Shown here: one piece after another, positions 1 through 16,820 of the stretch | Layout of the letters: every line of letters starts with the position of its first letter | How positions within the stretch are numbered: position 1 is the first letter of the stretch | Notes under the pieces: generated by a model | Database searches by the model: none | Seen by the model: the letters and a program-made list of their open reading frames with translations, nothing else | What the model was told of the DNA's origin: nothing | IMG/VR virus record: IMGVR_UViG_3300023174_002512 | Location: 1-23,603 of that record | DNA length: 23,603 bases | Strand: one strand, 5' to 3' | Source of the DNA: a virus | Program-made: the position numbers and the translations under genes

Positions 1-2017
1 CACCATTGATGTGGGCTTCTTTTGCTGCTGAACGGCGAAGCATAAATGTTCTGACTTTGCCACTCGTATCTTTCAATAAATGTTTATGGTTTAATTTGAC
101 TTCTTCTTTAACTGGTTTAACAACTCTATCCATAGCACGATTAATACCTGCTTGGTGTTTATCTGACATTTTGTTATATACATCGGAAGGTTGAACTTGG
201 CCTTTCATTGTTTTTACATAGCCAAATGTTCTTTTTTTAATATAATTGGATGCTGAATCAACTGAAATTTCATTTACTTTTTCAACTTCTTCTTTGTTAA
301 CTTGTTTCTCTAAACGGTCAATAGCACTAGACATATTCTCTTTGCCTTGTGCTGCGGCTTCTTTGCGTTTAGCTTCAATTTCATCATGTTTCTTTTCTCT
401 TTCAGCTGCAGCTTGACGAAACTTATCAAGTGCTGTTGGTTTCTTAGCCTCAAATAATTCTTCAAATTCTTCATTAATTTTTTTCTGTGATTTCATAGAT
501 GAACCTGAAATTGGAATATTTGGTTGTGATGGTTCTGCATCAGAAACCTTAACTAGTTTATCATGTACCGAGCGATACAATGTTTTTCTATCTTTACCAT
601 AGCGACCAAAGCCGTAGTATTCTAAACCAAGTTTTCGTGCTTCAGTAGAAGCAGCAGAATTAGGATGTGGCATTGCATCAGTTTTCTTATCAATTGGCAT
701 CGTATCTTTTTTCTGTAACTCATTTGCTACCCACTCTTTTGCTTGGTCTGCTTTTGGTGGTGCTTTCATAAACTTCTGAACACCTTTGTATAGGTTCAGA
801 AGTTCTTCTTTCTTTGCTTGAACAATCTCTGGTCTTGCAACTCTTAAATCTTCAGAGTTATCAAACTCAGCATATCTGTCACCAAATAGTTTTGCTAATT
901 CTGGTCTTGCCTTTTGAACGGCATCCCATTTTTGTTTGCGAACATCTTCAGGTACGGTACGACCACCACGAGAACCTCTTTCAACATTTCGTGAAGCGGA
1001 TACTTCATCTCGTGTGTTGACCATAATCATTGATGTGTCATAGCCTAATTCTTCAAGGCGAGATTTAATTGTTTTAATCTTTTCATGGTCATCACCTGTG
1101 CCATTGATAATCAAACCATTACGACCTTGTAGTGCTAAACGCTGGCGTAACTCGGTCATGTTCTTGGCTCGACCACGAACCAAATCTCTTTCAATCTTCT
1201 CAGATGCAGGCATCGTCTTGCTTAGATTTTTTTTATCCATCAAGAACTCTAAAGCCTTATCAGAGTTAATCTCAACCATGCCATTACCAGCAAGTGTGTT
1301 ATCTAAAACATAATCTTTACCAGAACCAGGACCACCTGCTAGAAATACTGCCTTAAAGATGCCTTTGTCATGCACACCTTCATTCAATAATTCTTCAAAT
1401 GCTTCATCAACAGATTCTTTAATGCCCATGTGTTTACGAACATCACTATACAATTCTTTTGCATGGCTTGGTTCAACATGAGATGGAATGCCTTTCTTAA
1501 ATTCTTTGAAGTTGCCAGTTGAAGCATGACTTCTCATTTTTGATGCTGACATTCCTTCTGTGCCTTCAGCATCAGGATCTCTTTCACCAGAAGAATGAAC
1601 AGTAATCTTTTTAAAATTGAATAGTGCGCCTTTGGCTGATCCATTGTATTGTGCCAATTTCTTTTTGTATTCTTCGGTGCGGTCAGAACCTGCCACCATG
1701 TGCAAATGTGTTACACCAGATTTGTGGAGTTTAGCCGCTTGGTCAAGAAAAGTAGGAGATTCTTTATTTGAAGTTGACAGATTGGTGTCAGGAAAGAACC
1801 GTTTTGCGTGTTTGAGTTTATCTTTTGCGGAGAGAGGATTCTTTTTAGGATCCTGTGAGTGAGAGAGAACAACATGGTGTGAACCACCAACAGACTTAGC
1901 AACCTCTTTGACCTTATCCACCAACTTGGCGTGGCCGGTTGTAGGCGGATTCATCCTGCCAAATGCAAGAACGGCGTGCTTCTCTGGTGCTTCTTGTATA
2001 AATTCTCTAAATTTCAT
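1..2017 (-). CDS. Nucleotidyltransferase-kinase fusion with capsid-targeting-like N terminus (partial, 3' end outside window)
   Basis: An open frame of 672 codons runs from ATG at 2017 off the left edge without a stop. Residues 11-200 look like a cytidylyltransferase/NMN-adenylyltransferase-fold domain: RMNPPTTGH (21-29) is the HxGH-type nucleotide-binding motif and GMSASKMR (155-162) matches the C-terminal S/T-x-x-R signature. Residues 217-420 look like a P-loop kinase of the polynucleotide-kinase/zeta-toxin type, with Walker A GGPGSGKD (228-235) and an Arg-rich lid region (345-353). A charged helical region (530-580) follows. Residues 1-10 (MKFREFIQEA) resemble the T4 internal-protein capsid-targeting sequence, with IQE|A as a gp21-type cleavage site. 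A perfect late promoter lies 36 bases upstream, and AGAGG precedes the ATG by 5 bases. The domain pair recalls NadR, but the kinase half looks different; the substrate is unknown. The domain calls are fairly secure; virion packaging is inferred. Confidence 0.88.
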   Translation of the reverse strand, partial: MKFREFIQEAPEKHAVLAFGRMNPPTTGHAKLVDKVKEVAKSVGGSHHVVLSHSQDPKKNPLSAKDKLKHAKRFFPDTNLSTSNKESPTFLDQAAKLHKSGVTHLHMVAGSDRTEEYKKKLAQYNGSAKGALFNFKKITVHSSGERDPDAEGTEGMSASKMRSHASTGNFKEFKKGIPSHVEPSHAKELYSDVRKHMGIKESVDEAFEELLNEGVHDKGIFKAVFLAGGPGSGKDYVLDNTLAGNGMVEINSDKALEFLMDKKNLSKTMPASEKIERDLVRGRAKNMTELRQRLALQGRNGLIINGTGDDHEKIKTIKSRLEELGYDTSMIMVNTRDEVSASRNVERGSRGGRTVPEDVRKQKWDAVQKARPELAKLFGDRYAEFDNSEDLRVARPEIVQAKKEELLNLYKGVQKFMKAPPKADQAKEWVANELQKKDTMPIDKKTDAMPHPNSAASTEARKLGLEYYGFGRYGKDRKTLYRSVHDKLVKVSDAEPSQPNIPISGSSMKSQKKINEEFEELFEAKKPTALDKFRQAAAEREKKHDEIEAKRKEAAAQGKENMSSAIDRLEKQVNKEEVEKVNEISVDSASNYIKKRTFGYVKTMKGQVQPSDVYNKMSDKHQAGINRAMDRVVKPVKEEVKLNHKHLLKDTSGKVRTFMLRRSAAKEAHING
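446..469 (-). other. Third gp21-like cleavage site, after the kinase domain
   Basis: Residues 517-524 read EFEELFEA. LFE|A fits the prohead protease consensus and repeats the FEEL of the second site. It falls just before the charged C-terminal helical region. This is a pattern match only. Confidence 0.35.
1376..1405 (-). other. Second gp21-like cleavage site, between the nucleotidyltransferase and kinase domains
   Basis: Residues 205-214 read EAFEELLNEG. LNE|G fits the prohead protease consensus and the segment resembles the N-terminal tag (FxE-hydrophobic-hydrophobic-x-E-small). It lies between the nucleotidyltransferase domain and the Walker A motif at residue 228. Whether it is cut is unknown. 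Confidence 0.4.
1988..2017 (-). other. Capsid-targeting-like N-terminal peptide of the nucleotidyltransferase-kinase
   Basis: The first ten residues, MKFREFIQEA, follow the pattern of T4 internal head proteins (MKxxxEFIxEA). IQE followed by A fits the gp21 prohead protease consensus (L/I)-x-E|(A/G/S). In T4 this peptide directs proteins into the prohead and is then removed. Function here is inferred from the pattern alone. Confidence 0.6.
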
Positions 2018-2052
2018 CTCCGCCTCTACAGCGTTTAATTATGATTACAGTC

Positions 2053-2064: not shown

Positions 2065-2844
2065 TTATGTTCTGTATGCTTCTGAGGATGTTTTGGAACT
2101 AGACCTTTTCTTAATCAAATCTAGTATTTCTTGACTGTTTGCCTGCTCTGAAGTGGGTGCAAAGTATGCTCGGTCATGTGAATCTACACCAGTTCTTGGC
2201 TCAGAAATATAGTATATCGCCAATGACTTACGATAAACACCTTCTGGACAAACGATTTCAGTTGGTAGTCCATGCCATGAATTATCTGCGGTATCAAACA
2301 GAACCGCACGATTAAATTTATTATACACCTTCGTTACACATTCTTTTGGTAGGTTCTTCTCTGCATCGTGTGACCAAAACTCTAGGCCACCATTCCATTC
2401 TTCTTGCCAATTTGGTGTCATGTAGATAATGATATTGATTCGTCTTTCCATGCCAAGTTTTGGATGAATAGAATAATCTTTGTGCATATTTAATTTACCA
2501 CCACGAGTATGCATATGCCAACCACCACCATGCATACCATAATCTGCAACAAGGTTTGGAATGCCAGTAATACATTTAATTTTATCTACGAACTCAGGTT
2601 TATTCATCATCGTGAAAGCCTGATATGTTTTGGCAGGAAACAAATCCCAATGTGGAGTTAATTTTTTGTTTTCAATGGCATTACGATAAACTGACCAGAT
2701 GTTTGGGTCATTGTAATCAGGAAATTCATTAGACAAATCTAATGCGGTAATATCTTCAAAGAAGTTATCAATAATACAATGTCGAAATGGTTTAGCTTCT
2801 TGAAATTCTTTGTTTAACTTATCGTAATCAAATTCGTTAATCAT
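2065..2844 (-). CDS. 2-oxoglutarate/Fe(II)-dependent oxygenase (prolyl-4-hydroxylase-like)
   Basis: A 259-aa protein with the double-stranded beta-helix iron-site pattern: H121-x-D123 in MHKD, a distal histidine in SWHG (H191), and R205 (YRKS) placed as the 2-oxoglutarate-binding arginine. GGLEFW (152-157) before the distal histidine is typical of P4H-like members. Enzymes of this family hydroxylate protein side chains or small molecules using O2 and 2-oxoglutarate; the substrate is not evident. Its ATG overlaps the stop of the preceding gene (ATGATTAA), and it is the last gene of the long coupled operon, so it may act on a product of that pathway. Family assignment is secure; specificity is unknown. 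Confidence 0.9.
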   Translation of the reverse strand: MINEFDYDKLNKEFQEAKPFRHCIIDNFFEDITALDLSNEFPDYNDPNIWSVYRNAIENKKLTPHWDLFPAKTYQAFTMMNKPEFVDKIKCITGIPNLVADYGMHGGGWHMHTRGGKLNMHKDYSIHPKLGMERRINIIIYMTPNWQEEWNGGLEFWSHDAEKNLPKECVTKVYNKFNRAVLFDTADNSWHGLPTEIVCPEGVYRKSLAIYYISEPRTGVDSHDRAYFAPTSEQANSQEILDLIKKRSSSKTSSEAYRT

Positions 2845-3562
2845 TTTTTCTTTTATATTCTTCTACAAACTGGTGAAATTGTGAGCCAAATCGTTTTGCA
2901 TAACATGAGTGTTCAATGGGAAACTTCTTAACTTTTATGTGCCTATTTTGAATTAAGAAAATAGATAACAATCTTTCCGTTACAAATGAAAAGAATGGGA
3001 TCCATGAGCCGTTATATCCTTTACCATCACGATAGAGGTAATTATATAGTTCACCATCTCCACGACAAATCTCTAATGTGTTATCAAGGAATGTTAACCA
3101 TTCTGTCCAAAACTTTGAGTTACCAATATAGTAATTACAGGTGGCAAAGTCATCTGCTTTATAAATTAATTCTTCAGCCTTTTCTGTGATACCAATCTTT
3201 GGAAATAAACGATTTGCAAACTTCAACATACCAGGATGCCATTGGTCTCCTTGCACCCAAAGATTTACATAATTTGCTGTAACTTCTAAACTTGGATCCA
3301 TGTGATACACATCATAATCAGGATTGGCTAAAATCCAATCACGAAACTCAGAAGAAGGCAACTCTGTTTTTTGCATCCAACGCCACGATAAAAGACCCCA
3401 ATATACATCGGTATCTTTGTGTTTCTCTAATAGATTTTTCCACATGGGATATTCCCGCAACTCTGGCTTGGCATTTTCGGTATTATCATACGGGGTAAAT
3501 GTAGAGTCTAAAATAGGCAACTGACTGTTATCATAGTATGCCTGATACAAAATCAAATTCAT
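2837..3562 (-). CDS. Glycosyltransferase-like protein (resembles DUF4422 organisation)
   Basis: A 241-aa soluble protein, coupled by ATGA to the preceding epimerase gene. Two blocks resemble DUF4422-type putative glycosyltransferases: an early segment with PELREYPMW and VYWGLLSWRW (about residues 33-62), where that family has an ELT.YW..WKN and GL.HYRR pattern, and FVTERLLSIFL (193-203), like the C-terminal ERL.S block. No DxD motif is obvious, apart from acidic stretches near YDVYHMD (83-89). Its position among nucleotide-sugar enzymes supports transfer of a sugar, but the resemblance is weak. The gene is clearly real; the function is tentative. Confidence 0.8.
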   Translation of the reverse strand: MNLILYQAYYDNSQLPILDSTFTPYDNTENAKPELREYPMWKNLLEKHKDTDVYWGLLSWRWMQKTELPSSEFRDWILANPDYDVYHMDPSLEVTANYVNLWVQGDQWHPGMLKFANRLFPKIGITEKAEELIYKADDFATCNYYIGNSKFWTEWLTFLDNTLEICRGDGELYNYLYRDGKGYNGSWIPFFSFVTERLLSIFLIQNRHIKVKKFPIEHSCYAKRFGSQFHQFVEEYKRKND

Positions 3563-4374
3563 TTCACCATGTCCTCAATGATAGCCTTCATATCGTAGTT
3601 TGGAGTGTATCCTAATGATTTTAATTTATCAGATAGCATCCACATACTACGAACTTGTACCGTGCGATGGAAGTCAGGAATTTCAATCGGCACTAATTTG
3701 CCTTTCCCACCAATTAATTCTTTGGCATACTCAATCATATCCTTGAATAACAATGGTTGCCCATTACCCACATTGTAGGTAGTATTAACTTCGCCTTTTT
3801 CCATGATGAGTTTAATTGCCCTAGCGGCATCATTTACATGAATATAATCTCGGTAAAGATTGCCGCCATCATAGACATTCACATCACGGCCTGCCTTCAA
3901 TTCATTAATCATATGTTGAAGTGCGTTCTTTTGTGGTGATGCCTTCTTATCGCCATAACCTGCAACATTAGCAAGACGGAGAATACGATACTTGATACCA
4001 AAGGTTTCACAATAAGAAATCAATAGTTGCTCTGCACAGCGTTTGGTAATAGAATAGAATCCATTTGGATAACAATTTGATTCTTCGTGTGCAGGCATCT
4101 CTGTTTCACCATAAACAAACCATGAACTGATAAAGTTAAATGTTACGGGTGAACTTTTACATTGTCGTAAAACTTTCATCAATGTAGTAAGATTTGTATC
4201 AATGTCAATAAAAGGGTCAGTCTTTACATTGTAATTTGTTACAGTAGAAATCATGTAAAGAATATCTTGGCCTTTTATTTCATAATCATTACGAGCATTT
4301 ACTATACAACCCGGATTCTGTCTAGTAAATTCTGAACCAACAAAGCCTGAACCACCAAATACTTGAATTTTCAT
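3559..4374 (-). CDS. NAD-dependent epimerase/dehydratase (extended SDR)
   Basis: A 271-aa extended short-chain dehydrogenase. The nucleotide-binding loop GGSGFVG lies at residues 7-13, SSWFVYGE (83-90) carries the catalytic serine region, and FYSIT-K gives Y107 and K111. DGGNLYRDYIHVND in the C-terminal half is the usual substrate-side signature of sugar-nucleotide epimerases and reductases. It lacks the Asp-Glu pair of 4,6-dehydratases, so epimerase or 4-ketoreductase activity is more likely. Downstream of an RfbH-type dehydrase, a CDP-abequose- or paratose-synthase-like 4-reductase is an attractive guess but cannot be settled from sequence. It is joined by 4-base ATGA overlaps to the 63-aa gene before it and the glycosyltransferase-like gene after it. 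Confidence 0.92.
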   Translation of the reverse strand: MKIQVFGGSGFVGSEFTRQNPGCIVNARNDYEIKGQDILYMISTVTNYNVKTDPFIDIDTNLTTLMKVLRQCKSSPVTFNFISSWFVYGETEMPAHEESNCYPNGFYSITKRCAEQLLISYCETFGIKYRILRLANVAGYGDKKASPQKNALQHMINELKAGRDVNVYDGGNLYRDYIHVNDAARAIKLIMEKGEVNTTYNVGNGQPLLFKDMIEYAKELIGGKGKLVPIEIPDFHRTVQVRSMWMLSDKLKSLGYTPNYDMKAIIEDMVK

Positions 4375-4562
4375 AGTGCTTGTTTCAACTTTTCAATTTC
4401 ATCATCTGTAAGGTGCATATCAAAATTGGAATAACTAATTACTTTTTTGGTTGATGTATCTAAAATTTCTCGTCTAAATGTAATTTTAGTTAAATCAGAT
4501 GGGTTTCTAGTCGATTGTGTTTCAACAATTAAATTACAATCATTTACATTTTTAAGTAACAT
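4371..4562 (-). CDS. Hypothetical 63-aa protein within the sugar operon
   Basis: I do not recognise this protein. It starts at ATG 4562, overlapping the end of the dehydrase gene by 11 bases, and its stop overlaps the epimerase start (ATGA). That tight packing in an otherwise gap-free operon argues it is translated. It has no signal peptide or membrane segment. The sequence alternates short beta-like stretches (KITFRREIL, KKVISYSNF) and ends in an acidic-basic helix (DDEIEKLKQAL). It could be a small accessory subunit for the neighbouring enzymes, but nothing in it shows this. Confidence 0.75.
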   Translation of the reverse strand: MLLKNVNDCNLIVETQSTRNPSDLTKITFRREILDTSTKKVISYSNFDMHLTDDEIEKLKQAL

Positions 4563-5835
4563 TTTTAATCACCTTTTCAATATAATCAAATACTGCATCA
4601 TTCCAAAATGGAGGACAACCTAACAAAAATACATGAGATAACGCTTTGTTTGCCAATGGATATTTACTTGCATCATCTAAGTGTTTGAAGCCTGGATGCA
4701 ATAGAATATTACCAGCAAAATAGTTTCGTGTTTGAATCTTATTGGCTTCAAAGTGTGCAACCAAAGTTTCTTTTTGTTTTTGTGTTTCACAGATAATTGG
4801 CACACCAAACCATGATGGTTCAGATTTATCTAGTTTGTCAGCCACACGAACATTCAAATATTTAAGCAATAGTTTAGATAATCTCTCTTTGTGTTCTTTT
4901 CTTTTCTCGTGAATGTAATCAACCTTTTCTAATTGTGCTATACCAATGGCACCTTGCATATCAAGAGGCTTCAGGTTGTAACCTGCATAAGCAAAAATAT
5001 ATTTGTGGTCAATAATGCCATCATAATCTGGCAACCACTTATCAAATCTATTGCCACAAGTTCCGCATGGTAACATATTGTTTGAACCAACACAATAACA
5101 ATCACGACCCCACCAAGAAATGGAACGAGCAATGTCAATTAACTTTTCATCATTAGACGAAATCATTCCGCCTTCACCTGTTGACATATGATGTGCAGGA
5201 TAGAATGATGTTGACCAGCAGTAATACAAATCAGTAATCAACTTTTCATTCCATTTGGTGCCTAGTGAATCGCAGTTATCACCAATCAATACAAGGTTAT
5301 TTCTGTAACAAATATCATGGATTCTATCCATATCAGGCGGATTGGCCAATACAGGAGAAACAATAATTGCTTTGGTCTTTTTTGTAATCTTTTCTTCAAT
5401 CTTATTTACATCAAAGTTCAATGTATCAAACTCAATATCAATGAATACTGGCTTAAGATTGTTCTGCATCAATGGTGCAATTGTAGTTGGAAATCCAACT
5501 GGTGAAACAATCACTTCATCATCATCTTGCCAATTCAAATGTTTCTTAACAGCGGCCATCATCACTAAATTGGCAGATGAACCAGAGTTGACCATGTGTG
5601 AGGCTTTTACATTGTATTTCTTTGAGAACTTGATTTGAAATTGTTCAACTCTTTCACCTGCTGGCAACCATTTGCCTGTGAGAAAAGATTTTAGACCAGC
5701 TGCAAACTCTTTTTCGTCCCACATTTGACCAGAATACATTACATAATCTTCGCCAGGTTTGAAGTTAGAATAATCTTGTTGATACTTCGGTTTAGCCTGT
5801 TTGGCTATTTCTTCAATTAATTTATCGTCAATCAT
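4552..5835 (-). CDS. RfbH/E1-type NDP-4-keto-6-deoxyhexose 3-dehydrase (DegT/DnrJ fold)
   Basis: 427 aa from ATG 5835, which forms TAATG with the preceding stop; a longer frame back to 5880 would sit inside that gene. The fold is a DegT/DnrJ/EryC1 sugar aminotransferase, but the residue normally occupied by the PLP-binding lysine is histidine (H215 in FYPAHHMSTGEGG), exactly as in E1/RfbH (DdhC). C188, C246, C248 and C257 reproduce the C-x57-C-x-C-x7-C iron-sulfur motif of E1, with one extra residue in the last gap. Family knowledge: E1 uses PMP and a [2Fe-2S] cluster to remove the 3-hydroxyl of CDP-4-keto-6-deoxyglucose, leading to 3,6-dideoxyhexoses such as abequose, paratose and tyvelose. 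The partner reductase (RfbI/DdhD) is not in the window. Confidence 0.92.
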   Translation of the reverse strand: MIDDKLIEEIAKQAKPKYQQDYSNFKPGEDYVMYSGQMWDEKEFAAGLKSFLTGKWLPAGERVEQFQIKFSKKYNVKASHMVNSGSSANLVMMAAVKKHLNWQDDDEVIVSPVGFPTTIAPLMQNNLKPVFIDIEFDTLNFDVNKIEEKITKKTKAIIVSPVLANPPDMDRIHDICYRNNLVLIGDNCDSLGTKWNEKLITDLYYCWSTSFYPAHHMSTGEGGMISSNDEKLIDIARSISWWGRDCYCVGSNNMLPCGTCGNRFDKWLPDYDGIIDHKYIFAYAGYNLKPLDMQGAIGIAQLEKVDYIHEKRKEHKERLSKLLLKYLNVRVADKLDKSEPSWFGVPIICETQKQKETLVAHFEANKIQTRNYFAGNILLHPGFKHLDDASKYPLANKALSHVFLLGCPPFWNDAVFDYIEKVIKNVT

Positions 5836-6548
5836 TAATATGCTTCCAATTGTCCATTTCCAGCCAACATTCCTTGGCAATATAAATTTTCAAACTCTAC
5901 TGAAAAACCTTTATCAATATTACCATAGTGTGCGTGTTCTGTGTCAACGCCATGTTGATTTATTGTTTGATAAATTGCTGGTAAAGTATTCAGATAATTA
6001 TCAAACAATGATATACAGAATGAATACATTCTAGTTATGTATAAGTGGTCACAACCAGATTCTAATTGTTTCTGTGGTGGTAACCAAGACGGCATTGCTT
6101 TCTTAAACACATACTTACCATATTGATTATCATATGCCTTAGGGTCATAACCTTCAAGCATATTGGTTCTAGCAGATAACTTAAACACCCTACGAACACC
6201 AGCCATCATCTTCTGTAATTCAGGATGTTGTTTAATAATACTTAGTGTCTTAAACAATAGAGTAATTTCTGCTTGTGATTTAAGGCCTGCATTTGCGAGT
6301 GACATTAAATCTTCATCACCAAAAAAACTAATACTTCTATCACAATATTGTGTTATTGTAACCATTGTTGCTTCATCAACCATCCTAGAAGAAGCATCTA
6401 CTAAGAAGATAATAGCATCAGGTGCAGCCTTGCGTAATGATTGCAGACCTTCAATCGTTTGCCTTATTCTTGTTTCATCATCAATAACACCAATGCTCGT
6501 TTTCAGAGCCGATGTTACAATAAACAAATCGGTACTAGGTATAATCAT
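5835..6548 (-). CDS. Hypothetical protein, possibly glycosyltransferase-like
   Basis: 237 aa from ATG 6548, chosen because it gives an ATGA overlap like its neighbours; an in-frame ATG at 6557 would add three residues. The N terminus (DLFIVTSALKTS, then an RIRQT...SLRK block and IIFLVDAS) has the alternating beta-alpha look of a GT-A Rossmann-like fold. VFKLSARTNML in the middle recalls the K(L/I)SGRY segment seen in some sugar-transfer proteins of surface-polysaccharide loci. No DxD motif is evident. It lies between an SDR and the RfbH-type dehydrase, so a sugar-transfer role fits, but I do not recognise a named family. Confidence 0.8.
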   Translation of the reverse strand: MIIPSTDLFIVTSALKTSIGVIDDETRIRQTIEGLQSLRKAAPDAIIFLVDASSRMVDEATMVTITQYCDRSISFFGDEDLMSLANAGLKSQAEITLLFKTLSIIKQHPELQKMMAGVRRVFKLSARTNMLEGYDPKAYDNQYGKYVFKKAMPSWLPPQKQLESGCDHLYITRMYSFCISLFDNYLNTLPAIYQTINQHGVDTEHAHYGNIDKGFSVEFENLYCQGMLAGNGQLEAY

Positions 6549-7216
6549 TTGTGCCATTCGGTATCAGGAAACATTTTAATAGTTTTATATTCAATATTGA
6601 ATTGGCTATTATACACGAAATCAATTACTTTTACAAGTTCTATTGGTGAAATTGCCTTACTTACATCACCGCATGGGTAAGGTATATCTCTACTCCATAA
6701 TGGTGTATCAATACCGCCTGGATGAATACTTGTTACTTTGATTCCTCTGCTACGCAATTCTTCACCAAGAACACCAGCAAATCCTGTAAGACCATGTTTA
6801 GAGGCACAATATGCGGATTGGTTTTCTAGTTCTTCAAGGCCTGCAACTGAATTGATAAAGAATATACGACTGCCTTTTTCCATTTTCTGTAATGCAAACT
6901 TAGTTACATACATGGCACCTTTAAGATTGATATCAATCATATCATCAATCTCATCAATACTGGTTTGTGAAAATGATTTCATCTTAAATACGGCTGCATT
7001 ATTAACTAGAATATCAATGTTACCAATCTGCTCAAAGGCAACACTTAGAAAGTATGGATTGCCAATATCAACTCTAAAGTGTTTGTAGTTTGATTGTTGA
7101 AACAACGATTCACCACGAGCAAAACCAATTACATTCCAACCTTTCTCAATGTAATCATATGCGATTTTTGCACCAACACCACTTGTGGTGCCAGTAATTA
7201 GAATTGTCTTATTCAT
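6545..7216 (-). CDS. Short-chain dehydrogenase/reductase (classical SDR)
   Basis: 223 aa from ATG 7216, which overlaps the cyclase stop (ATGAATAA). A further upstream TTG at 7231 is less likely. Classical SDR motifs are intact: cofactor loop TGTTSGVG (8-15), NNAA (72-75), catalytic S123, Y136 and K140 in YCASK, and the HPGGIDT block after the active site. These enzymes interconvert a hydroxyl and a ketone using NAD(P)H. Directly after the sugar-phosphate cyclase gene, it could reduce or oxidise a cyclitol ketone, as dehydrogenases do in C7-cyclitol pathways; that link is inferred from position only. Confidence 0.92.
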   Translation of the reverse strand: MNKTILITGTTSGVGAKIAYDYIEKGWNVIGFARGESLFQQSNYKHFRVDIGNPYFLSVAFEQIGNIDILVNNAAVFKMKSFSQTSIDEIDDMIDINLKGAMYVTKFALQKMEKGSRIFFINSVAGLEELENQSAYCASKHGLTGFAGVLGEELRSRGIKVTSIHPGGIDTPLWSRDIPYPCGDVSKAISPIELVKVIDFVYNSQFNIEYKTIKMFPDTEWHK

Positions 7217-8351
7217 ATTTAACTTCTTCAAATATATCTGAAGCTTTCTTTATCTCATCATCTGTTACATCATTTAATATTTTATAGTTGCCAATGCCAA
7301 CTGGCACAGGTAAGTATTGATTACTGTTTCTATGCTTCATTGTATCAGATAAAGACTTTTTAAGCAATTCAAATTTACAAAAATCTTTATGGAATACAGG
7401 CAATTTTAAACTGTGTGCTGTCTTAAAGATTCTTTCTAGTGTTTCAGTATCAATGTAACCACGAACATTAGCCAAACAAGAACTCAACAAGCAATCTAAT
7501 ACAACTGCTTCGCCATGTTGTAGTGTGTCCATATTTTGCATTTCAATAATAGGACTAAACGAATGGCCAAAGTCAACACATCGGTCTAGTTTTCTTTCCC
7601 ATAAATTTGGTGCCAATTCTTCAATCATGCCCGTAATGGCAGAATTGATTACACGAACTGGTACTGCACCAAACTGAAACTTCTCGATGATTAGTTGTTC
7701 TGCACTTGCTTCAAGTAACTCAAATAATTCTTTGTCTTTGATTACTGCAAGTTTAAATATCTCTGCAATGCCATTGACAATGTTTCTTTCATCTTGTGTA
7801 GCAATAAACTTCTTGTCTAGTAATGTGGCAATTGGTGGGTAATATGCACCAATACGATTTCTGCGGCCAAAGTGATTAGCTGCAACTTTAACACCAACAG
7901 AAGCATCTACGATAGCCAACAATGTAGTTGGCACTTTTACATAAGGAATACCTCTGCGATAGATTGAACAACAGAAACCAACCAAATCAAGCAGAACACC
8001 ACCACCAATTACAATGATTGCTTCTCTACGCAATACACCAACATCTTCAAAGAACCTTAAAATCTGGTCTGTGTGTTCCCAATCTTTGTTTTGTTCTGTG
8101 GCATCAATAACAAATAGCTTCAATTCTATTTTGAATGTGTTGAAGTAATCTTGTAATTGTTGACCATACAGTTTATATACAGTCTGGTCTATGACAACCA
8201 CTCTACGATTGGACTCACCAAAACTTAACAGGTCGTGATTGTTAATATTAAATACATCACTAGAATACTTTAAGACAAATTCAACCGGCAGTTCAGCTTT
8301 AACTGACCAAGTGCGTTTATAATTATCAAATTTTGTTAATACATTTTCCAT
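7209..8351 (-). CDS. Sugar-phosphate cyclase, sedoheptulose-7-phosphate cyclase type (2-epi-5-epi-valiolone synthase-like)
   Basis: A 380-aa member of the dehydroquinate-synthase-fold sugar-phosphate cyclases. The NAD-binding GGGVLLD (116-122), YRRGIPYVKVPTTLLA (131-146), E197/K200 in AEIFK, and metal-site residues H263 and H279 (QHGEAV) are present. Details favour the sedoheptulose-7-phosphate cyclases over 3-dehydroquinate synthase: VDASVGVK (148-155) rather than DSSVGGK, RRNRIGAYYPP, and DFGHSFSP (260-267), where dehydroquinate synthases have NxGHxxGH. EEVS enzymes turn sedoheptulose 7-phosphate into 2-epi-5-epi-valiolone, the entry to C7-cyclitols; related clades make other valiolones or desmethyl-4-deoxygadusol. 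The start forms TAATG with the kinase stop. Family is secure; the exact product is not. Confidence 0.93.
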   Translation of the reverse strand: MENVLTKFDNYKRTWSVKAELPVEFVLKYSSDVFNINNHDLLSFGESNRRVVVIDQTVYKLYGQQLQDYFNTFKIELKLFVIDATEQNKDWEHTDQILRFFEDVGVLRREAIIVIGGGVLLDLVGFCCSIYRRGIPYVKVPTTLLAIVDASVGVKVAANHFGRRNRIGAYYPPIATLLDKKFIATQDERNIVNGIAEIFKLAVIKDKELFELLEASAEQLIIEKFQFGAVPVRVINSAITGMIEELAPNLWERKLDRCVDFGHSFSPIIEMQNMDTLQHGEAVVLDCLLSSCLANVRGYIDTETLERIFKTAHSLKLPVFHKDFCKFELLKKSLSDTMKHRNSNQYLPVPVGIGNYKILNDVTDDEIKKASDIFEEVKYE

Positions 8352-9304
8352 TAGAATATCTTACTTAACAAGTGGCAAGCATGAACATAAAAGAATTTTG
8401 CCTTTTCAAAATCACCAGCTGCACACTTAAATGGCAACATACGAATGAATTGAGTTGCCTCTAATACATCAATGATTTGTTTATGTTCAAGGTGTGATTC
8501 AAAGATTTTATTAAATACTTTTAGATTATTTGGTATTTCTAAGTTATGTGATACAGATGAACCTTCTATGATAACAAACCTATCATTTATAAAGCCATAA
8601 TGACTACGAGAACATTGAAGCACCTGTGAATAATCTAATAGCCTACTATCTATAATGCTTTCTTCATACGGGTCAATGAATATGACTTTATCTTCTTCAA
8701 AAGAATACATCATATTTTCTAATGTTGGATTACCATGAATATTTTCTTCTGTAACCAATTCCATTTCATCAAAGAAGTTCTTCAACTCAGGTAAAAAGTT
8801 TTGAATGCCATGTGTTATTTGACCATTGTATTCAAAAGTATTGAATGTTCCAAGTTCATAAAAATTGTAGAAAGTTGGATACTTAAAAGCATCTGAAAGT
8901 TTTTGTGTAACTTCTTCTTTAAAATATAATTTGGGACCACCAGGATTTGGTATATACATTTTGCGGTGTAAGTTATCAAACGACCACATCATCGCATCAT
9001 GTATCTTTTCAATTTGATTTTCAGTTAATTTATCTTCTGATAAAATGGTTTTAATATCTCTGTAACCTTCCAAATAAGCGATATCAAAATAGGTTGAGTT
9101 ATTTGAATAATTCACATCTAATATTTTTGGAAACAAACCAGTTTCAGCCAATCGTTGTAGTTTCTTTAACTGTGTATACCAACGAACATAACCATATTCA
9201 CGATTGTCTTTTGTGCTGATTGATTTGCGAATAAACTTCCTATCACCATCTTCATATAATGATGTAGAACTAAGAGAACCGCCTTTTAATTGTGTAACTT
9301 TCAT
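8351..9304 (-). CDS. APH/choline-kinase-like phosphotransferase
   Basis: 317 aa with the aminoglycoside-phosphotransferase/choline-kinase fold pattern. KFIRKS (23-28) fits the nucleotide-binding strand with its lysine. IHGNPTLENMMY (189-200) is the catalytic loop, and IFIDPYE (208-214) is the metal-binding segment with D211. The loop reads HGN where the family normally has HGD: the catalytic Asp position is N192 (codon AAT), which may lower or abolish activity or reflect a subfamily variant. Kinases of this fold often sit beside a nucleotidyltransferase to activate a sugar or choline (LicA-LicC, AmgK-MurU). Here the nucleotidyltransferase gene overlaps by ATGA and the cyclase follows by TAATG, so a cyclitol or sugar substrate is plausible. 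Confidence 0.87.
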   Translation of the reverse strand: MKVTQLKGGSLSSTSLYEDGDRKFIRKSISTKDNREYGYVRWYTQLKKLQRLAETGLFPKILDVNYSNNSTYFDIAYLEGYRDIKTILSEDKLTENQIEKIHDAMMWSFDNLHRKMYIPNPGGPKLYFKEEVTQKLSDAFKYPTFYNFYELGTFNTFEYNGQITHGIQNFLPELKNFFDEMELVTEENIHGNPTLENMMYSFEEDKVIFIDPYEESIIDSRLLDYSQVLQCSRSHYGFINDRFVIIEGSSVSHNLEIPNNLKVFNKIFESHLEHKQIIDVLEATQFIRMLPFKCAAGDFEKAKFFYVHACHLLSKIF

Positions 9305-10017
9305 TTTAAACTTTTCTTTGCTAGTTCAAGACCATATTCTTGTGGTGAACCAAGAACAATAGTTTCATAGTTGTTATTTAATCCATTCAAGCCAATAGAA
9401 CAATTCTTCTCAATCATATGTGTAAATAGATTTGCAATATACATTTCCTTACCAACAAATGTGGCAGATAAACTCTCATACATCTGTTGGTATAATTGTG
9501 AGCTTTGAAACCCATATAGACCAGAACTGGCAAATGGAGAGATAGGAGATTTCTCTACAATCTCTGTTACAAGTCCATCTTTTGAACGAACATAAGAATA
9601 CTTTGGATTATTGGCAACAAACACATCAATGTAACCATCAGCCATCAAACTTTCAATCTCATTAAAATCTCTGCCAATTAAAAGTGTATCTGCATTGTGA
9701 ACAAAAAATGGTTTGGTTTGATTCTTTAGTAGTGAAGCACCAATGTATGCTGTGTGTGCCTGACCATCAGTATCACCAATATATTGAATATTATTCTCTG
9801 TTAGACCTAGTGGTTTAATTGTATCAACTAACTTGGTCTTAAAATAAGAATCTCTTTTATTCGCCAGAAGAATAGTTTCATCAAAAGTACCAAGTTGCTT
9901 AATGATTTCATGGATAATTGTTTCATCACCCCAAGGCAACAGATACTTTGGTATGTCAAAGCCAACATCATGGAATCTGGTGTTTAACCCAGCCATGCAT
10001 AATACTAACGAAGCCAT
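9301..10017 (-). CDS. Sugar nucleotidyltransferase (NTP_transferase family)
   Basis: 238 aa with the NTP_transferase layout: the nucleotide-binding loop MAGLNTRF (8-15) followed by IPKYLLP (22-28), a GQAHT block (85-89), and HNAD (107-110), whose Asp fits the metal ligand. Such enzymes couple a sugar 1-phosphate or similar phosphate to an NTP, releasing pyrophosphate. The usual GxGxR loop is varied (AGLNTRF), as in several polysaccharide-locus members. The start overlaps the previous gene by 13 bases and its stop overlaps the kinase start (ATGA). Together with the kinase it forms a phosphorylate-then-nucleotidylate pair. Which NTP and which sugar or cyclitol cannot be told. Confidence 0.92.
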   Translation of the reverse strand: MASLVLCMAGLNTRFHDVGFDIPKYLLPWGDETIIHEIIKQLGTFDETILLANKRDSYFKTKLVDTIKPLGLTENNIQYIGDTDGQAHTAYIGASLLKNQTKPFFVHNADTLLIGRDFNEIESLMADGYIDVFVANNPKYSYVRSKDGLVTEIVEKSPISPFASSGLYGFQSSQLYQQMYESLSATFVGKEMYIANLFTHMIEKNCSIGLNGLNNNYETIVLGSPQEYGLELAKKSLK

Positions 10018-10712
10018 TGTTCAAAGTCCTCACGAATCAAACTGTGCCATGTTCCGTTATATTGGCCTGGTGGAAATGGATGGTCAAGATTACAATATAT
10101 CAAATTTTCTCCAACTAAATTATTTGCTTTCCAATTTTCACTCATCATATCTTCACACATCATTTGCACACCATCTTCATCATAAAATTCATCAATACGG
10201 TTAAAAGTGTCTGCATACTTGTCCATATTTTCTGAAGATGAAAACGCAAATTGGTCATTACCAAAATCTCTTTGAGGTGTCATACGACAATTAGGTATAT
10301 GAAGTTTTGTATTATCTAAATCTGCAAAAGGTATTCTAGCATTAATGGCAAAATCAAAACGAGAACGAATTACCCAATCAAATTTTATATTATTGGATTC
10401 TTCATAGACCGTTTTTAATTCATTACATTTCATAATGCCATACAATTGGTTATAAGTTGACCTAGCTGGGTCTTTTACTTTCCAATTTGGTTGTGGTGGC
10501 GGAACTCTGGTGTATTTTGATAGGTCATTTGTCAATGACTTCTCAATCATAAATGCTTCAGGTTTATAGATTTCAATATCTGCAACTTCAGGTGATTCCC
10601 ACACATGACAAAAAACGATAACATCATTACCGTCTAGTATGTTTCTTTTAACAAACTCATAACCTTGTTTTACGCTACGAGCTTGTCCTGATAAACAAAG
10701 AGCAATCTTCAT
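10005..10712 (-). CDS. Putative glycosyltransferase-like protein
   Basis: 235 aa from ATG 10712, which gives an ATGA junction; the alternative GTG at 10721 is less likely. The N terminus KIALCLSGQAR is typical of a group of phage and polysaccharide-locus proteins thought to be GT-A-like transferases, and VIFCHVW soon after supports that. DWVIRSRFDF, in the middle, is the expected place for the nucleotide-sugar metal site (RxRxD pattern). There is no signal peptide or membrane helix. It follows the RmlB-like dehydratase, so it may transfer the sugar made by this operon. Annotation as a glycosyltransferase is moderately supported; donor and acceptor are unknown. Confidence 0.83.
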   Translation of the reverse strand: MKIALCLSGQARSVKQGYEFVKRNILDGNDVIVFCHVWESPEVADIEIYKPEAFMIEKSLTNDLSKYTRVPPPQPNWKVKDPARSTYNQLYGIMKCNELKTVYEESNNIKFDWVIRSRFDFAINARIPFADLDNTKLHIPNCRMTPQRDFGNDQFAFSSSENMDKYADTFNRIDEFYDEDGVQMMCEDMMSENWKANNLVGENLIYCNLDHPFPPGQYNGTWHSLIREDFEQWLR

Positions 10713-11737
10713 TTGAGCCACTTATCATTTTCTAACGACCATTGAACCATACCTTTAATGCGGTCACGCAAAGAAATCTTTGGTTTCCATCCTAAAGATT
10801 CCATATAATCACCAGACAAAGCGTAGCGTAAATCGTGGCCAGGTCTGGATGAATGAAAGTCAACCATTTCATATTTTAACTCCTTGTTTTGTGCTTCTGC
10901 AATTAATTTAGCCAATTCTAAGTTATCTACTTCATCTGGTCCCACAATATTAAACTTAGGAATCTTCGCACCACCAAAATCTGGAATACGAGCATAATCT
11001 TCAGGCAGGTTTAGAATAAACATTAAACCATCTGCAACATCTTTAGCATGAACATAGTGGCGTGAGCCTGCCTTTGTTTTGCTTCTATCAGAGTGAATAG
11101 TAAGTGTTTCACCATCACGAGCATACCGAATGGCCTTAGGAATAAACTTCTCAGGATGTTGGCGTTCACCAAACACATTCATTGTATGTGTAACAATGAT
11201 TGGCATATTGTATGTGTTCTCAAATGCAACACACATTTCTTCACCTGCCGCCTTAGATGCTGAATATGGATTCGTAGCATTGTAACGGTCTCTTTCTTTG
11301 TAATCTACGCCTTCTGGTGCGGGACCAAACACTTCATCTGTGCTGAAGTAAACAAACTTTTCTAAGTTCTTTAATGTGCGAGCATAGTTTAATAGATTAA
11401 CTGTACCGATTACATTGTCTTGCACAAACTCCATTGGAAATTCAATTGAGCGGTCTACATGAGAACCAGCTGCAAGGTGCAATACTAATTGAACATCACC
11501 AATTAAACCTGAAGTCTGTGGATTAATTTCAGCACGCAAATCATGGAACACAATCTCAACCCGTTTCTTCTGCTCAGGTGAATACTTCTTCATAATATCT
11601 TCAAGGCGATTTAGATTGCCAGAGAAATCTAATCGGTCAAGTGATACGATTGTCCAATCTGTTGTATCAAGGATTGTTTCAATCAAGTGATGTGCAATGA
11701 AGCCTGCACCACCTGTAATTAATACTCTTTTAGTCAT
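10709..11737 (-). CDS. NDP-glucose 4,6-dehydratase (RmlB-like extended SDR)
   Basis: 342 aa, the usual length for nucleotide-sugar 4,6-dehydratases. Visible are the NAD loop ITGGAGFI (7-14), HVDRSIEFP (93-101), the dehydratase-specific STDEVFG with D134/E135, YSASKAA with Y158 and K162, and the substrate-side SRPGHDLRYAL near the C terminus. The reaction is NDP-glucose to NDP-4-keto-6-deoxyglucose. RmlB uses dTDP-glucose; the RfbH-type 3-dehydrase in this operon would need the CDP form if it follows the classical route, so the nucleotide used here is open. The start overlaps the previous stop (ATGACTAA) and the stop overlaps the next start by 4 bases. Confidence 0.94.
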   Translation of the reverse strand: MTKRVLITGGAGFIAHHLIETILDTTDWTIVSLDRLDFSGNLNRLEDIMKKYSPEQKKRVEIVFHDLRAEINPQTSGLIGDVQLVLHLAAGSHVDRSIEFPMEFVQDNVIGTVNLLNYARTLKNLEKFVYFSTDEVFGPAPEGVDYKERDRYNATNPYSASKAAGEEMCVAFENTYNMPIIVTHTMNVFGERQHPEKFIPKAIRYARDGETLTIHSDRSKTKAGSRHYVHAKDVADGLMFILNLPEDYARIPDFGGAKIPKFNIVGPDEVDNLELAKLIAEAQNKELKYEMVDFHSSRPGHDLRYALSGDYMESLGWKPKISLRDRIKGMVQWSLENDKWLK

Positions 11738-12575
11738 TATATTTTTCCTCTATAACTTTTTTCCATTCTGGTACTCTATCATATTGATGAACAATTGTAA
11801 AGTCTTTTCCTGTTGAAGTTGCAACTTTGCCGTCTTTCATAATTGGTGATGGTTCAAGCAAGAATGGTTTGAATTCGTTAATCTTACTTGGGTCGGCAGT
11901 TGTGCCTAATTGTGCAGCCCATCCATCTTCTGACTTCATGTATCTTGCCACAGATTTATATGGCTCTTGTGAAATCATAAAGTTAAATGTGGATTGATCC
12001 ACAATTGGTATAGGTCGATTTACTGACATAACAAATATCATCGCACACAAATCTCTCATCGCTTCACCACGACCTGCCAAAACGCCTACATTGTAGATTG
12101 TATTGTCTTTGAATCTTTCATGGAAGAAGGGACCAAATGTTTCAATTAAGTTTTGGTTACCCCATGGTTCATCTTTGTATTTCATTGATTCGGAAGCAAA
12201 CATCAGCTTAGCACCTGGTAATTCCATGCCAAGGTATTTTGTTGGGTCTTCCTGAAAGATTACATCTTTAACATCGGTAGTAATAACAAACCGATAAGCA
12301 TCATGTGATTGTAGGTAATTGTAGATGTGAACAAAGCGCTCTACATGGACAGGCAACGATGATTGGTATTCATATCGTTGTGTAGTGTCGTTTGCTTTTC
12401 CAGGCAAAATGACCTGAAATCCGGCATCAGATAGCCGTTTGATGGTTTCATAATCAATGTTGAAGGCGACCATAACTTTCTCGCCTTTATAACCTGATTT
12501 GTTGATAGAGTTAACCCAATACTTCAGTTTACTCCAATCATAATTTGTGGTACATCCTATAATCAAATCTTTCAT
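11730..12575 (-). CDS. GT-A-type glycosyltransferase
   Basis: 281 aa; the first gene of the coupled sugar operon, preceded by a 23-base gap. The start LIIGCTTNYDW and VMVAFNIDYET suit the first strands of a GT-A fold. TTDVKDVIFQEDP (99-111) matches the DxD-type sugar-nucleotide/metal site of that fold (D101, D104). YNVGVLAGRG (161-170) is the typical N-x-G acceptor-side segment seen after it. No membrane segment is visible. GGA precedes the ATG by nine bases. The sugar donor may be a product of the downstream enzymes, but this is inferred. Confidence 0.87.
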   Translation of the reverse strand: MKDLIIGCTTNYDWSKLKYWVNSINKSGYKGEKVMVAFNIDYETIKRLSDAGFQVILPGKANDTTQRYEYQSSLPVHVERFVHIYNYLQSHDAYRFVITTDVKDVIFQEDPTKYLGMELPGAKLMFASESMKYKDEPWGNQNLIETFGPFFHERFKDNTIYNVGVLAGRGEAMRDLCAMIFVMSVNRPIPIVDQSTFNFMISQEPYKSVARYMKSEDGWAAQLGTTADPSKINEFKPFLLEPSPIMKDGKVATSTGKDFTIVHQYDRVPEWKKVIEEKYND

Positions 12576-13239: not shown

Positions 13240-14466
13240 TTATTTGTCCCAATTCTTGGCAGCATTAAAATTGGCGTGTGCGAATTCTAACCTGTCTATT
13301 AACTTCATAGCATTACCTTTAATTCGGTCAACTGCTACAAATCCTTCTGGTGCAGTAATTCTAAACCCATTGTCTGTGCGAATGAATGTTCCAACATCAC
13401 GAATGGTTTCCAATTTACGAACAATCATTAGTTTAGCATCAACAAGTAAATTCTGTAAATCAAATATCTTTTTAAGTTCGGCAGCATTACTGCGATAGAA
13501 CCGCATAAGTTCATTCTTTTTTGCAATTCTTTCTTTTTTGGTTTTTTCTAGTTTAGCTTCAAGAACAGATTGATTCAATTTAGTTTCAATTGTTTTAATC
13601 AATTCATTGGTGTGTGCTGTTGTATTCTTAATTGCTTGGCCTTCACGCACTTTACTATTATTGAATGTTTTAATCTGCATTAGAATTGTTTCATTGGCTG
13701 AAATGCGATTCAATGCCAATGGATTAATCTGTTGAAATAAAGAACCTGCCTGTGATAACACTCTTGTAATTTCTTTTGTTTCATCTTCAGTAAATGTGGC
13801 AGTACCAGAAGCATCAACGAATGAGGCATCACGAAACCAAACATCTTTGGTTGTAGATAACTTACCAATATCCACATTGAAAGAGGCCTTCATATCAGAT
13901 ATGGTTTTGCCTGTGTATGATGTGTGAAACACCACACCTAATTGTGCAGCCAACATTGACTGTGCTAGTTTTGAATCAGCAGGAATAGCATACACGATTG
14001 TGTTTGGTTGAAAGGTAATATATTTTTCACCATCAATGGTTTCTTTTTTCAAATCACCTTTTGAAAACATCATGTCGCCTTGCAATACACCTTTGATACC
14101 AAGTTTTGGTAGATAACGTAATGCAACTTTCAACTTATCATTCAGACCTTCGGCTGGGTGATTTTTATCAATGTCTTTATCTGTATAATTTAGTTTTGCA
14201 TTTTTAGCAAACACACCCTTAGTACCAACAAAGAATTTACCATTCTCCGGATTAATGCCTGCAAACACAGCAGGTGCACCGTCCCATTTTGTTGTTACAT
14301 TAACATGAGATTGTGATTGGCCAGCAAGCATATCACGGAGAGAACGGAGAAAATTAATTGCTTCTCGGCCACCTGCAACACCACGATTGAGCAATTCATC
14401 TTCAATATGCTCAAGGTGAACATTCTTGCCTTCTTTGCCTTCTGTTAAGTATTCTGTGAATTTCAT
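13240..14466 (-). CDS. Ligase-fold-like protein (DUF6267-like) with capsid-targeting-like N terminus
   Basis: 408 aa. Several segments fall in the order of polynucleotide ligase/nucleotidyltransferase motifs: KWDGAP (60-65) as motif I with K60 the candidate nucleotidylated lysine, FFVGTKGVF (78-86), VLQGDMMF (127-134) as a motif III-like block, TIVYAIP (156-162), and EGFVAVDRIKGNAMKLI (374-390) as motifs IV and V. A helical, lysine-rich insert (about 270-345) precedes the last block. I associate the sequence with a phage family annotated DUF6267; its activity is not established to my knowledge. Residues 1-10, MKFTEYLTEG, match the T4 capsid-targeting pattern with LTE|G as cleavage site. The gene is coupled by ATGA to the preceding unknown. 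RNA or DNA ligase activity is inferred. Confidence 0.88.
   Translation of the reverse strand: MKFTEYLTEGKEGKNVHLEHIEDELLNRGVAGGREAINFLRSLRDMLAGQSQSHVNVTTKWDGAPAVFAGINPENGKFFVGTKGVFAKNAKLNYTDKDIDKNHPAEGLNDKLKVALRYLPKLGIKGVLQGDMMFSKGDLKKETIDGEKYITFQPNTIVYAIPADSKLAQSMLAAQLGVVFHTSYTGKTISDMKASFNVDIGKLSTTKDVWFRDASFVDASGTATFTEDETKEITRVLSQAGSLFQQINPLALNRISANETILMQIKTFNNSKVREGQAIKNTTAHTNELIKTIETKLNQSVLEAKLEKTKKERIAKKNELMRFYRSNAAELKKIFDLQNLLVDAKLMIVRKLETIRDVGTFIRTDNGFRITAPEGFVAVDRIKGNAMKLIDRLEFAHANFNAAKNWDK
14437..14466 (-). other. Capsid-targeting-like N-terminal peptide of the ligase-like protein
   Basis: MKFTEYLTEG matches the T4 internal-protein tag pattern (MKxxxE-aromatic-hydrophobic-x-E-small), with LTE|G as a gp21-type cleavage site. 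It is closely parallel to MKFREFIQEA on the other tagged protein of this window. Confidence 0.55.
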
Positions 14467-15701: not shown

Positions 15702-16820
15702 CTAACGGATAATGTCAATCTCTTTATCGCCAGACCATACTTCCATCTCGGTTCTGATACGGCCATCGTTCTTTAATGTTTCAAAACGATTGGATGCTTT
15801 CTTTTTCCACCACTCCACAATGTTTTTCATGTGAAACTTTTCATAGTTTTCGGGGTCAGGAACCAACTCTGTTTCTGTGCCATTAACCACTTCAATAAAG
15901 TTTTTGAAACCATAGTTGGAGATATAATATCTTTTTCTTTCTGTAAGACCTTTAGCCTTATCAATCACTTCATTGAATCGTGTGAGTTCAGGTTCACCTT
16001 TTAGTGCCATCTTAACCATACTAATAACTTTTATTGTTGCTTTGAGTTTCTTACTTGAATCGGATGGATCAACCAATTGTTCACCTGTTGCAGCCTCAAC
16101 ATAGTCTTTAAGTTTCTTGTAGGCATCCCCGTCAAGCATTGGCACAAAGTTACTATCAGTTAGACCTTTGAAACGGAGATATGGTTTCATACCATCATAC
16201 TGTGATACTGTCTTTGAAGAACCATACAGACTGGTTGTTTCAAACAAGCAGAGATTCATACCATACTTTTTGTTCATAACTCCACGCAATTCATGAGAAC
16301 AACACATAGCGGCAAGTAATTTACCACCAAGATAATTGAAACCAAATGGTTGAGCGGGAACAATAGTGAAACCCATTGCAGCCGAGTTATTAAAATTTCT
16401 TGCGGCTTCTTTGCTCTGTGTGAATACTTGACCAAGCATTTCATTACGAGGTTTCATGTTGATAACAGGAGAACCAAGGCGAATGAAACCAACAATCTTC
16501 TTTGTGTTCTTTTCAAATACAGCAAACTGAACTATGCGACCGGGAACACTACGAGAGATTAGGTGAGAAGAAATAACGGAGATATAATCTAACCAACGAG
16601 AAGAACCAATATCAACCAATTCAAACTCCATATCGTCTGGATGAATGGTAAAATCAGAGAACAAATCTTCTTCAGGCCCACATCCTGGTAAACAAACAGG
16701 CATCTCTGCAATTTGTCCCATTTTTTGACTACGCATATAATCATCAATGCGGTCAAAATGATGGTAATAATCTTCCATGTATTTGGCACAATATATGGCT
16801 TGTTCTTTATTTAATTTCAT
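15702..16820 (-). CDS. DUF4338-like protein (DruA-related fold), function unknown
   Basis: 372 aa. The central part resembles DUF4338, the domain of DruA: GFIRLGSPV (111-119), a Lys-Pro-Arg-Asn and LGQVF stretch (123-133), FTIVPAQPFGFNYLGGKLLA (151-170), CSHELRGVMNKKYG (174-187) and LCLFETTSLYG (190-200), which parallel the 'ilP...LaS..l......yg..p.l.ETf' pattern of that domain. DruA belongs to Druantia anti-phage systems, and the domain is also found in phage and transposon contexts; biochemical activity is unclear. The resemblance is judged by eye. It is coupled by ATGA to the metallopeptidase-like gene upstream, and ends before the late-promoter gap. Confidence 0.82.
   Translation of the reverse strand: MKLNKEQAIYCAKYMEDYYHHFDRIDDYMRSQKMGQIAEMPVCLPGCGPEEDLFSDFTIHPDDMEFELVDIGSSRWLDYISVISSHLISRSVPGRIVQFAVFEKNTKKIVGFIRLGSPVINMKPRNEMLGQVFTQSKEAARNFNNSAAMGFTIVPAQPFGFNYLGGKLLAAMCCSHELRGVMNKKYGMNLCLFETTSLYGSSKTVSQYDGMKPYLRFKGLTDSNFVPMLDGDAYKKLKDYVEAATGEQLVDPSDSSKKLKATIKVISMVKMALKGEPELTRFNEVIDKAKGLTERKRYYISNYGFKNFIEVVNGTETELVPDPENYEKFHMKNIVEWWKKKASNRFETLKNDGRIRTEMEVWSGDKEIDIIR

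Follow-up and report, generated by a model that had tools for sequence, protein, structure and literature searches.

Gene content, promoter, and domains of the locus

The window, i.e., the whole stretch of 23,603 nucleotides that we analyzed, comes from a record of a 23.6-kb viral fragment with T4-type replication genes. On its minus strand, an open frame of 672 codons starts with MKFREFIQEAPEK and runs off the window edge; a homolog that is 93% identical to the window protein (L002) is 902 aa long. The features considered below are as follows, with a bar marking each predicted cut.

2..2017 (-): nucleotidyltransferase-kinase polyprotein gene; 672 aa visible, 3′ end past the window edge
2018..2032 (-): leader element GCTGTAGAGGCGGAG with ribosome binding site, directly 5′ of the start codon
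2053..2060 (-): T4-type late promoter TATAAATA, 43 bases 5′ of the polyprotein ATG
1991..2017 (-): capsid targeting sequence (CTS) MKFREFIQE; F3, F6, I7, and E9 correspond to Y4, F7, I8, and E10 of T4 IPIII
1988..1993 (-): predicted cleavage E9|A10 (site 1); motif match, P1′ not conserved
1430..1978 (-): nucleotidyltransferase (NTase) domain, residues 14-196; NMN/NaMN adenylyltransferase-like, TTGH and SASKMR motifs
1376..1399 (-): internal motif FEELLNE|G, similar to a leader, with predicted cleavage E213|G214 (site 2); within the disordered linker 202-216
764..1354 (-): P-loop kinase domain, residues 222-418; Zeta_toxin/AAA_33, Walker A GGPGSGKD
518..640 (-): mini-domain GLEYYGFGRYG...SVHDKLV, residues 460-500; common to virion-detected cyanophage enzymes
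446..466 (-): motif FEELFE|A with predicted cleavage E523|A524 (site 3); within the disordered linker 495-527
2..445 (-): C-terminal tail; helical, lysine-rich, different between homologs
14440..14466 (-): second CTS-like start, MKFTEYLTE|G, of a DUF6267 gene (13240-14466); P1′ is A in relatives

The late promoter that a sequence-only reading had placed before the gene is present: TATAAATA has one other copy in the window (both strands scanned), which falls within a gene. The exact octamer precedes the gene in 3 of 15 homologs tested, with near variants in others. The leader element GCTGTAGAGGCGGAG, which that reading did not remark on, is identical in 39 of 40 homologous loci and one base off in the 40th, and it occurs as a single copy in each of the large relative genomes G001 and G002. 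It is possibly a translational operator or a small hairpin.

Pfam assigns CTP_transf_like to residues 17-79 and Zeta_toxin/AAA_33 to residues 222-373, the kinase also matching AAA_18. AlphaFold (31 homologs in the alignment) models the NTase (14-196) and the kinase (222-418) with confidence, adds a small domain at 455-490, and gives pLDDT values below 50 at residues 202-216 and 495-527; the first ten residues average 55. The NTase carries its signature motifs (TTGH at 26-29, SASKMR at 157-162). Its Foldseek matches include NaMN adenylyltransferase (2qtm), and those of the kinase include polynucleotide and nucleotide kinases, while a PDB sequence search with the NTase gave no match and a search of the whole T4 genome found no homolog of the polyprotein. 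The catalytic motifs are retained in homologs (NTase xGH and SxSxxR, kinase P-loop), and the Walker A motif GGPGSGKD (window 1313-1336, minus strand; residues 228-235) ends in GKD in 31/31 family members. In related kinases from isolated phages, this place reads GKT or GKS, not GKD. Because the P-loop of this kinase family thus departs from the GK(S/T) of zeta toxins, its kinase activity is uncertain. Our guess from the predicted folds is that the chemistry after entry would concern NAD+ or nucleotide/RNA-end metabolism; they would suit either NAD+ repair or RNA-end work.

The order of the domains, adenylyltransferase and then P-loop kinase, is that of NadR, and the gene could encode an ordinary intracellular, unpackaged NadR-type enzyme for NAD+ salvage during infection, with the cleavage motifs being coincidental. 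The 2qtm fold match and the use of NAD+ salvage enzymes by phages (PMC9503650) agree with this. The kinase, however, belongs to a different family from the ribosylnicotinamide kinases (Pfam: Zeta_toxin, AAA_33, AAA_18) and resembles polynucleotide kinases by fold, and the two domains are separable, being encoded by separate genes in HTVC008M and Melnitz. Moreover, NTase homologs are reported in the virions of four cyanophages, and an invariant CTS and a late promoter precede the enzyme (see below). We therefore regard a NadR-type enzyme as quite improbable.

Placement and conservation of the predicted cleavage sites

The three gp21-like motifs described in the sequence-only reading are real and are the sole [IL]xE[AG] matches in the 672 aa: E9|A10, E213|G214, and E523|A524. 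Their number is too weak to serve as proof, since three matches against 0.6 to 0.9 expected per 672 aa (estimated from two large relative genomes) are near chance. The same reading had also noted that the spacing of the sites matches domain boundaries, and here the signal is strong. Given the low pLDDT around each, all three are predicted to lie in linkers, and the probability that three random sites would fall one into each linker is about 5e-4. Over 31 homologs, [ILV]xE[AG] occurs 52 times in linkers (4,021 aa) and once in folded parts (13,908 aa). Unlike the count, the placement and conservation of the sites are not near chance.

A gp21-type protease is encoded in 6/8 relative records searched; that of this phage would lie beyond the window, itself a fragment. 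The capsid protein of relatives has YLNE|A (G001) or ILNE|G (G002) at the expected cut place, and the gp22 and gp68-like scaffold genes of relatives are the richest in the motif. From these capsid sites and site-rich scaffold genes, the lineage appears to follow the (I/L)-x-E|(A/G) rule. The richness of the scaffold genes also raises the question of whether the polyprotein is itself a prohead core or scaffold component, cut by gp21 mainly for removal like gp22, gp67, and gp68, with enzyme domains that have no role after entry. Its C-terminal tail, which is helical, lysine-rich, and in homologs site-rich, would fit such a role, but the sites avoid folded domains (1/53 inside) and homologs retain their catalytic motifs, which makes a scaffold role very unlikely.

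Conservation across homologs, which the sequence-only reading named as a check, holds in full for site 2 and in part for the other two. At site 2, E213 and G214 are each invariant (31/31), P3 is L, I, or V, and no column of the region varies more than P2. The VHD..IFK that follows is also invariant, and residues 214-222 match the catalytic core in invariance, so part of the conservation of site 2 may belong to the kinase start. In a survey of 80 kinase loci, not all of them independent and gathered with two patterns (one containing EG, the other being Walker A), E|G stands at the kinase start in 80/80 and L/I/V at P3 in 79/80. About 11 of the 80 came through Walker A only; all of these have E|G and all but one have L or I at P3.

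Stand-alone kinases begin with a leader that ends in the same residues (MKTFRELKE|G, MKSFEQILSE|G, MIPFILKE|G). In HTVC008M and Melnitz, where the two enzymes are separate genes, the kinases begin MIPFILKE|G and MKTFAELQE|G, respectively. Upstream of the kinase, loci have no partner, this NTase, another NTase (L060, L130), an NTase plus a 70-aa insert (L066, L145), or unrelated regions (L160-L168, L199), among which L160 has a peptidase-like HELVHHKQ motif. In gp053 of the Agrobacterium jumbo phage Atu_ph07 (L110, 2245-4581), an unrelated N-terminal region that starts MKWNDLNE|A meets the kinase at VTE|G. Because E|G is kept in stand-alone and fused kinases alike, the internal site is the equivalent of a separate gene's leader. 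A second module is exchanged in a similar way: a small downstream gene of G001 starts MKTFNTFVVE|DLRKWF, and VFSE|DLRNWF or similar is found in-chain elsewhere (L017, L022, L037). In one homolog (L067), a KVNEEFES-like motif recurs at three junctions, and in some homologs the C-terminal tail includes additional modules that carry more such sites.

Cutting between the two enzymes at site 2 is strongly predicted from this invariance, the modeled disorder of the linker, and the presence of this E|G where stand-alone kinases begin. A different reading is that the chain is packaged but uncut, a multidomain effector in the style of polyvalent proteins that is injected whole, with LxE|G being nothing more than a conserved beginning of the kinase domain. 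In its favor, there is precedent for injected polyvalent proteins (PMC5512222), residues 214-222 vary as little as the catalytic core, and P1′ of site 1 is mostly not small. Against it, L/I/V at P3, a free P2, and an invariant E form a protease recognition pattern rather than a fold pattern; region 202-216 is predicted to be disordered; and in the stand-alone kinases this E|G directly follows a CTS-like leader, a position known to be cut in T4. We consider an uncut effector unlikely, at about one chance in five.

As a place for cutting, site 3 is less convincing than the other two: its FExxFxE is conserved in the alignment, but P1′ is variable, with A or S in roughly half of the homologs and E, D, or another residue in the rest. 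The mini-domain that precedes it has clear matches in two virion enzymes, the kinase gp14 of S-CREM2 (E = 5e-8) and the NTase of S-SM1 (E = 4e-6), and directly follows the leader in each. The matches that come next, after one iteration, are weak: the NTase of S-SCSM1 and the Cas9-like gp12 of S-CREM2, both of them virion proteins. The mini-domain may be a cargo-associated domain.

Capsid targeting sequences in virion proteins of relatives

T4 IPII and IPIII begin MKTYQEFIAE|A, and the window leader has the same spacing and mutationally mapped residues: aromatics three apart followed by I/L-x-E within a leader of about 10 aa. In the T4 CTS, capsid entry depends on residues 4 and 7, and processing on residues 8 and 10 (PMC9026906, a review of Black's work). 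Among the 31 homologs, F3, F/Y6, L/I7, and E9 are each present in 31/31, while CTS positions 4, 5, 8, and 10 vary freely. The residue after the leader is A in the window protein and in 3/31 homologs, and Q, N, K, T, or S in 28/31; conservation of site 1 thus stops at P1′. Since the published gp21 motif is given as L/I-x-E without a P1′ rule (PMC9026906), cutting before Q or N at the homologs' site 1 may be possible. These alignments suggest that targeting by site 1 is conserved and cutting in homologs perhaps not; cutting at E9|A10 is possible in the window protein, which matches the motif.

The family NTase is the cyanophage core cytidylyltransferase T4-GC190, which virion mass spectrometry reports in purified particles of four cyanophages: S-SM1 (PMC3037559), S-SZBM1 (PMC9146016), S-SCSM1 (PMC9602691), and S-CREM2 (PMC10665884). 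These virion-detected homologs are NTase genes without the kinase. All four (4/4) start with a CTS ending in E|A: MKKFSAFLNE|A in S-SM1, MRFRQFIIE|A in S-SZBM1, MKSFLQFLKE|A in S-SCSM1, and MKNFSSFLTE|A in S-CREM2. In the passages covered of the T4-GC190 papers, there is no mention of a targeting sequence or of cutting. The earlier proposal that the polyprotein is packaged in the prohead is thus well supported by analogy, through the CTS fit and the four virion NTases, with the packaging of this protein itself being drawn from its relatives.

We also examined how the leader is distributed over a genome. In S-CREM2, a CTS pattern derived from T4, whose final form (F/Y/L; I/L/M/V/F) was widened after a first look at this phage, marks 5/219 genes, and 5/5 are among the 52 virion proteins (P = 6.5e-4): a SAM hydrolase, an APH-like kinase, the NTase, and two unknowns. 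A stricter pattern gives 3/3 in virions (P = 0.013). A looser one, a leader followed by a small residue, shows no enrichment in S-CREM2 (1/52 virion proteins versus 3/167 others), which indicates that the targeting part (aromatics, I/L, and E) is informative and P1′ is not. S-SCSM1 has two clear CTS genes, one of them tagged as virion, which are too few to count. One S-SCSM1 gene whose start, MKTFKQFMSE|S, resembles a CTS carries no virion tag.

Whether the NTases, kinases, SAM hydrolase, and Cas9-like protein of cyanophage virions are cargo or contaminants is an open puzzle of cyanophage proteomics (PMC10665884), and the S-CREM2 authors write that the virion-associated enzymes might be co-purified contaminants (PMC10665884). 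A leader common to the virion enzymes argues against the contaminant reading, and a leader rule would offer a mechanism for packaging. The Cas9-like S-CREM2 gp12 (L090, 7704-10313) has RFASFMAE|A 17 residues past its annotated start and is a candidate packaged CRISPR-type nuclease. Its start may have been miscalled with respect to this CTS, although the codon there is CTG.

A proposed head-packaged polyprotein and its relation to known systems

We propose, with a probability of about 0.68, that the gene belongs to a T4-like (Kyanoviridae-type) aquatic phage, is expressed late, and encodes an enzyme polyprotein that is packaged in the head and cut in its linkers by a gp21-type protease so that its enzymes are injected separately. 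After late transcription, the nine-residue CTS MKFREFIQE would bring the chain into the prohead core, where the gp21-type prohead protease, cutting after (I/L)-x-E, would act in the disordered linkers. Of these predicted cuts, the one at E213|G214 is the most confident, and those at E9|A10 and E523|A524 are possible. The NTase and the P-loop kinase would then be separate proteins in the mature head and would be injected along with the DNA. A fusion of genes, each with its own targeting and cleavage leader, is the probable origin of the chain, and the leaders would have been retained as internal cutting sites. In this scheme, we infer the packaging of this particular protein, the cutting itself, the injection, and the direction of fusion.

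CTS loading and gp21 cutting are already known from T4, as are injected multidomain polyvalent proteins. The polyprotein resembles T4 IPI-IPIII and Alt in the (I/L)-x-E rule and the late promoter, and Alt in its enzyme cargo. It differs from the T4 internal proteins in having several enzyme domains on one chain with a site between them, and in the P1′ after the leader, which in its homologs is often not small. With at least two unrelated enzyme domains in one chain, it also resembles the polyvalent proteins, multidomain enzyme chains predicted to be head-packed and injected (Iyer et al. 2017, PMC5512222). Their processing is ascribed to a built-in metallopeptidase (PMC5512222), whereas the polyprotein would use the head protease in trans: Pfam gave no match to a metallopeptidase, which is common but not universal in polyvalent proteins, in the polyprotein or the full-length homologs scanned. 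The terms "zeta toxin" and "cyanophage" do not occur in the text of PMC5512222. In phiKZ-like phages and SPN3US, the head protease cuts head and ejection proteins after a short x-x-E, sometimes at several sites; these cuts remove propeptides, and the available part of that paper does not describe the separation of two enzymes (PMC10052503). The literature that we covered, partial enough for an absence to weigh little, describes neither a CTS rule for cyanophage or pelagiphage cargo nor a head protease that separates two enzymes.

More generally, we lean slightly toward a modular targeting-and-cutting code in marine and freshwater T4-like phages. Each cargo enzyme would have a leader, genes would fuse freely, and leaders would turn into head-protease sites within the chain, so that separate enzymes are delivered from the capsid by a single gene and cargo is predictable from sequence. 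If the leader rule holds, the cargo of very abundant aquatic phages could be read from their genomes, and this would be a case of a head protease in a phage separating the parts of an enzyme polyprotein, as is otherwise associated with RNA viruses.

The rest of the window adds several observations. PHROG 455 covers both DUF6267 and the nucleotidyltransferase, from which we conjecture that fused DUF6267-NTase forms probably exist. A run of sugar-nucleotide and glycosyltransferase-like genes (2837-12575, minus strand) lies between the polyprotein gene and the DUF6267 cluster; in HTVC008M and Melnitz, the two are at most a gene or two apart. Finally, amid the replication genes, positions 15702-16820 (minus strand) encode a DruA-like protein (PF14236, E = 8.5e-13), related to a Druantia defense protein, and a similar protein is found in HTVC008M.
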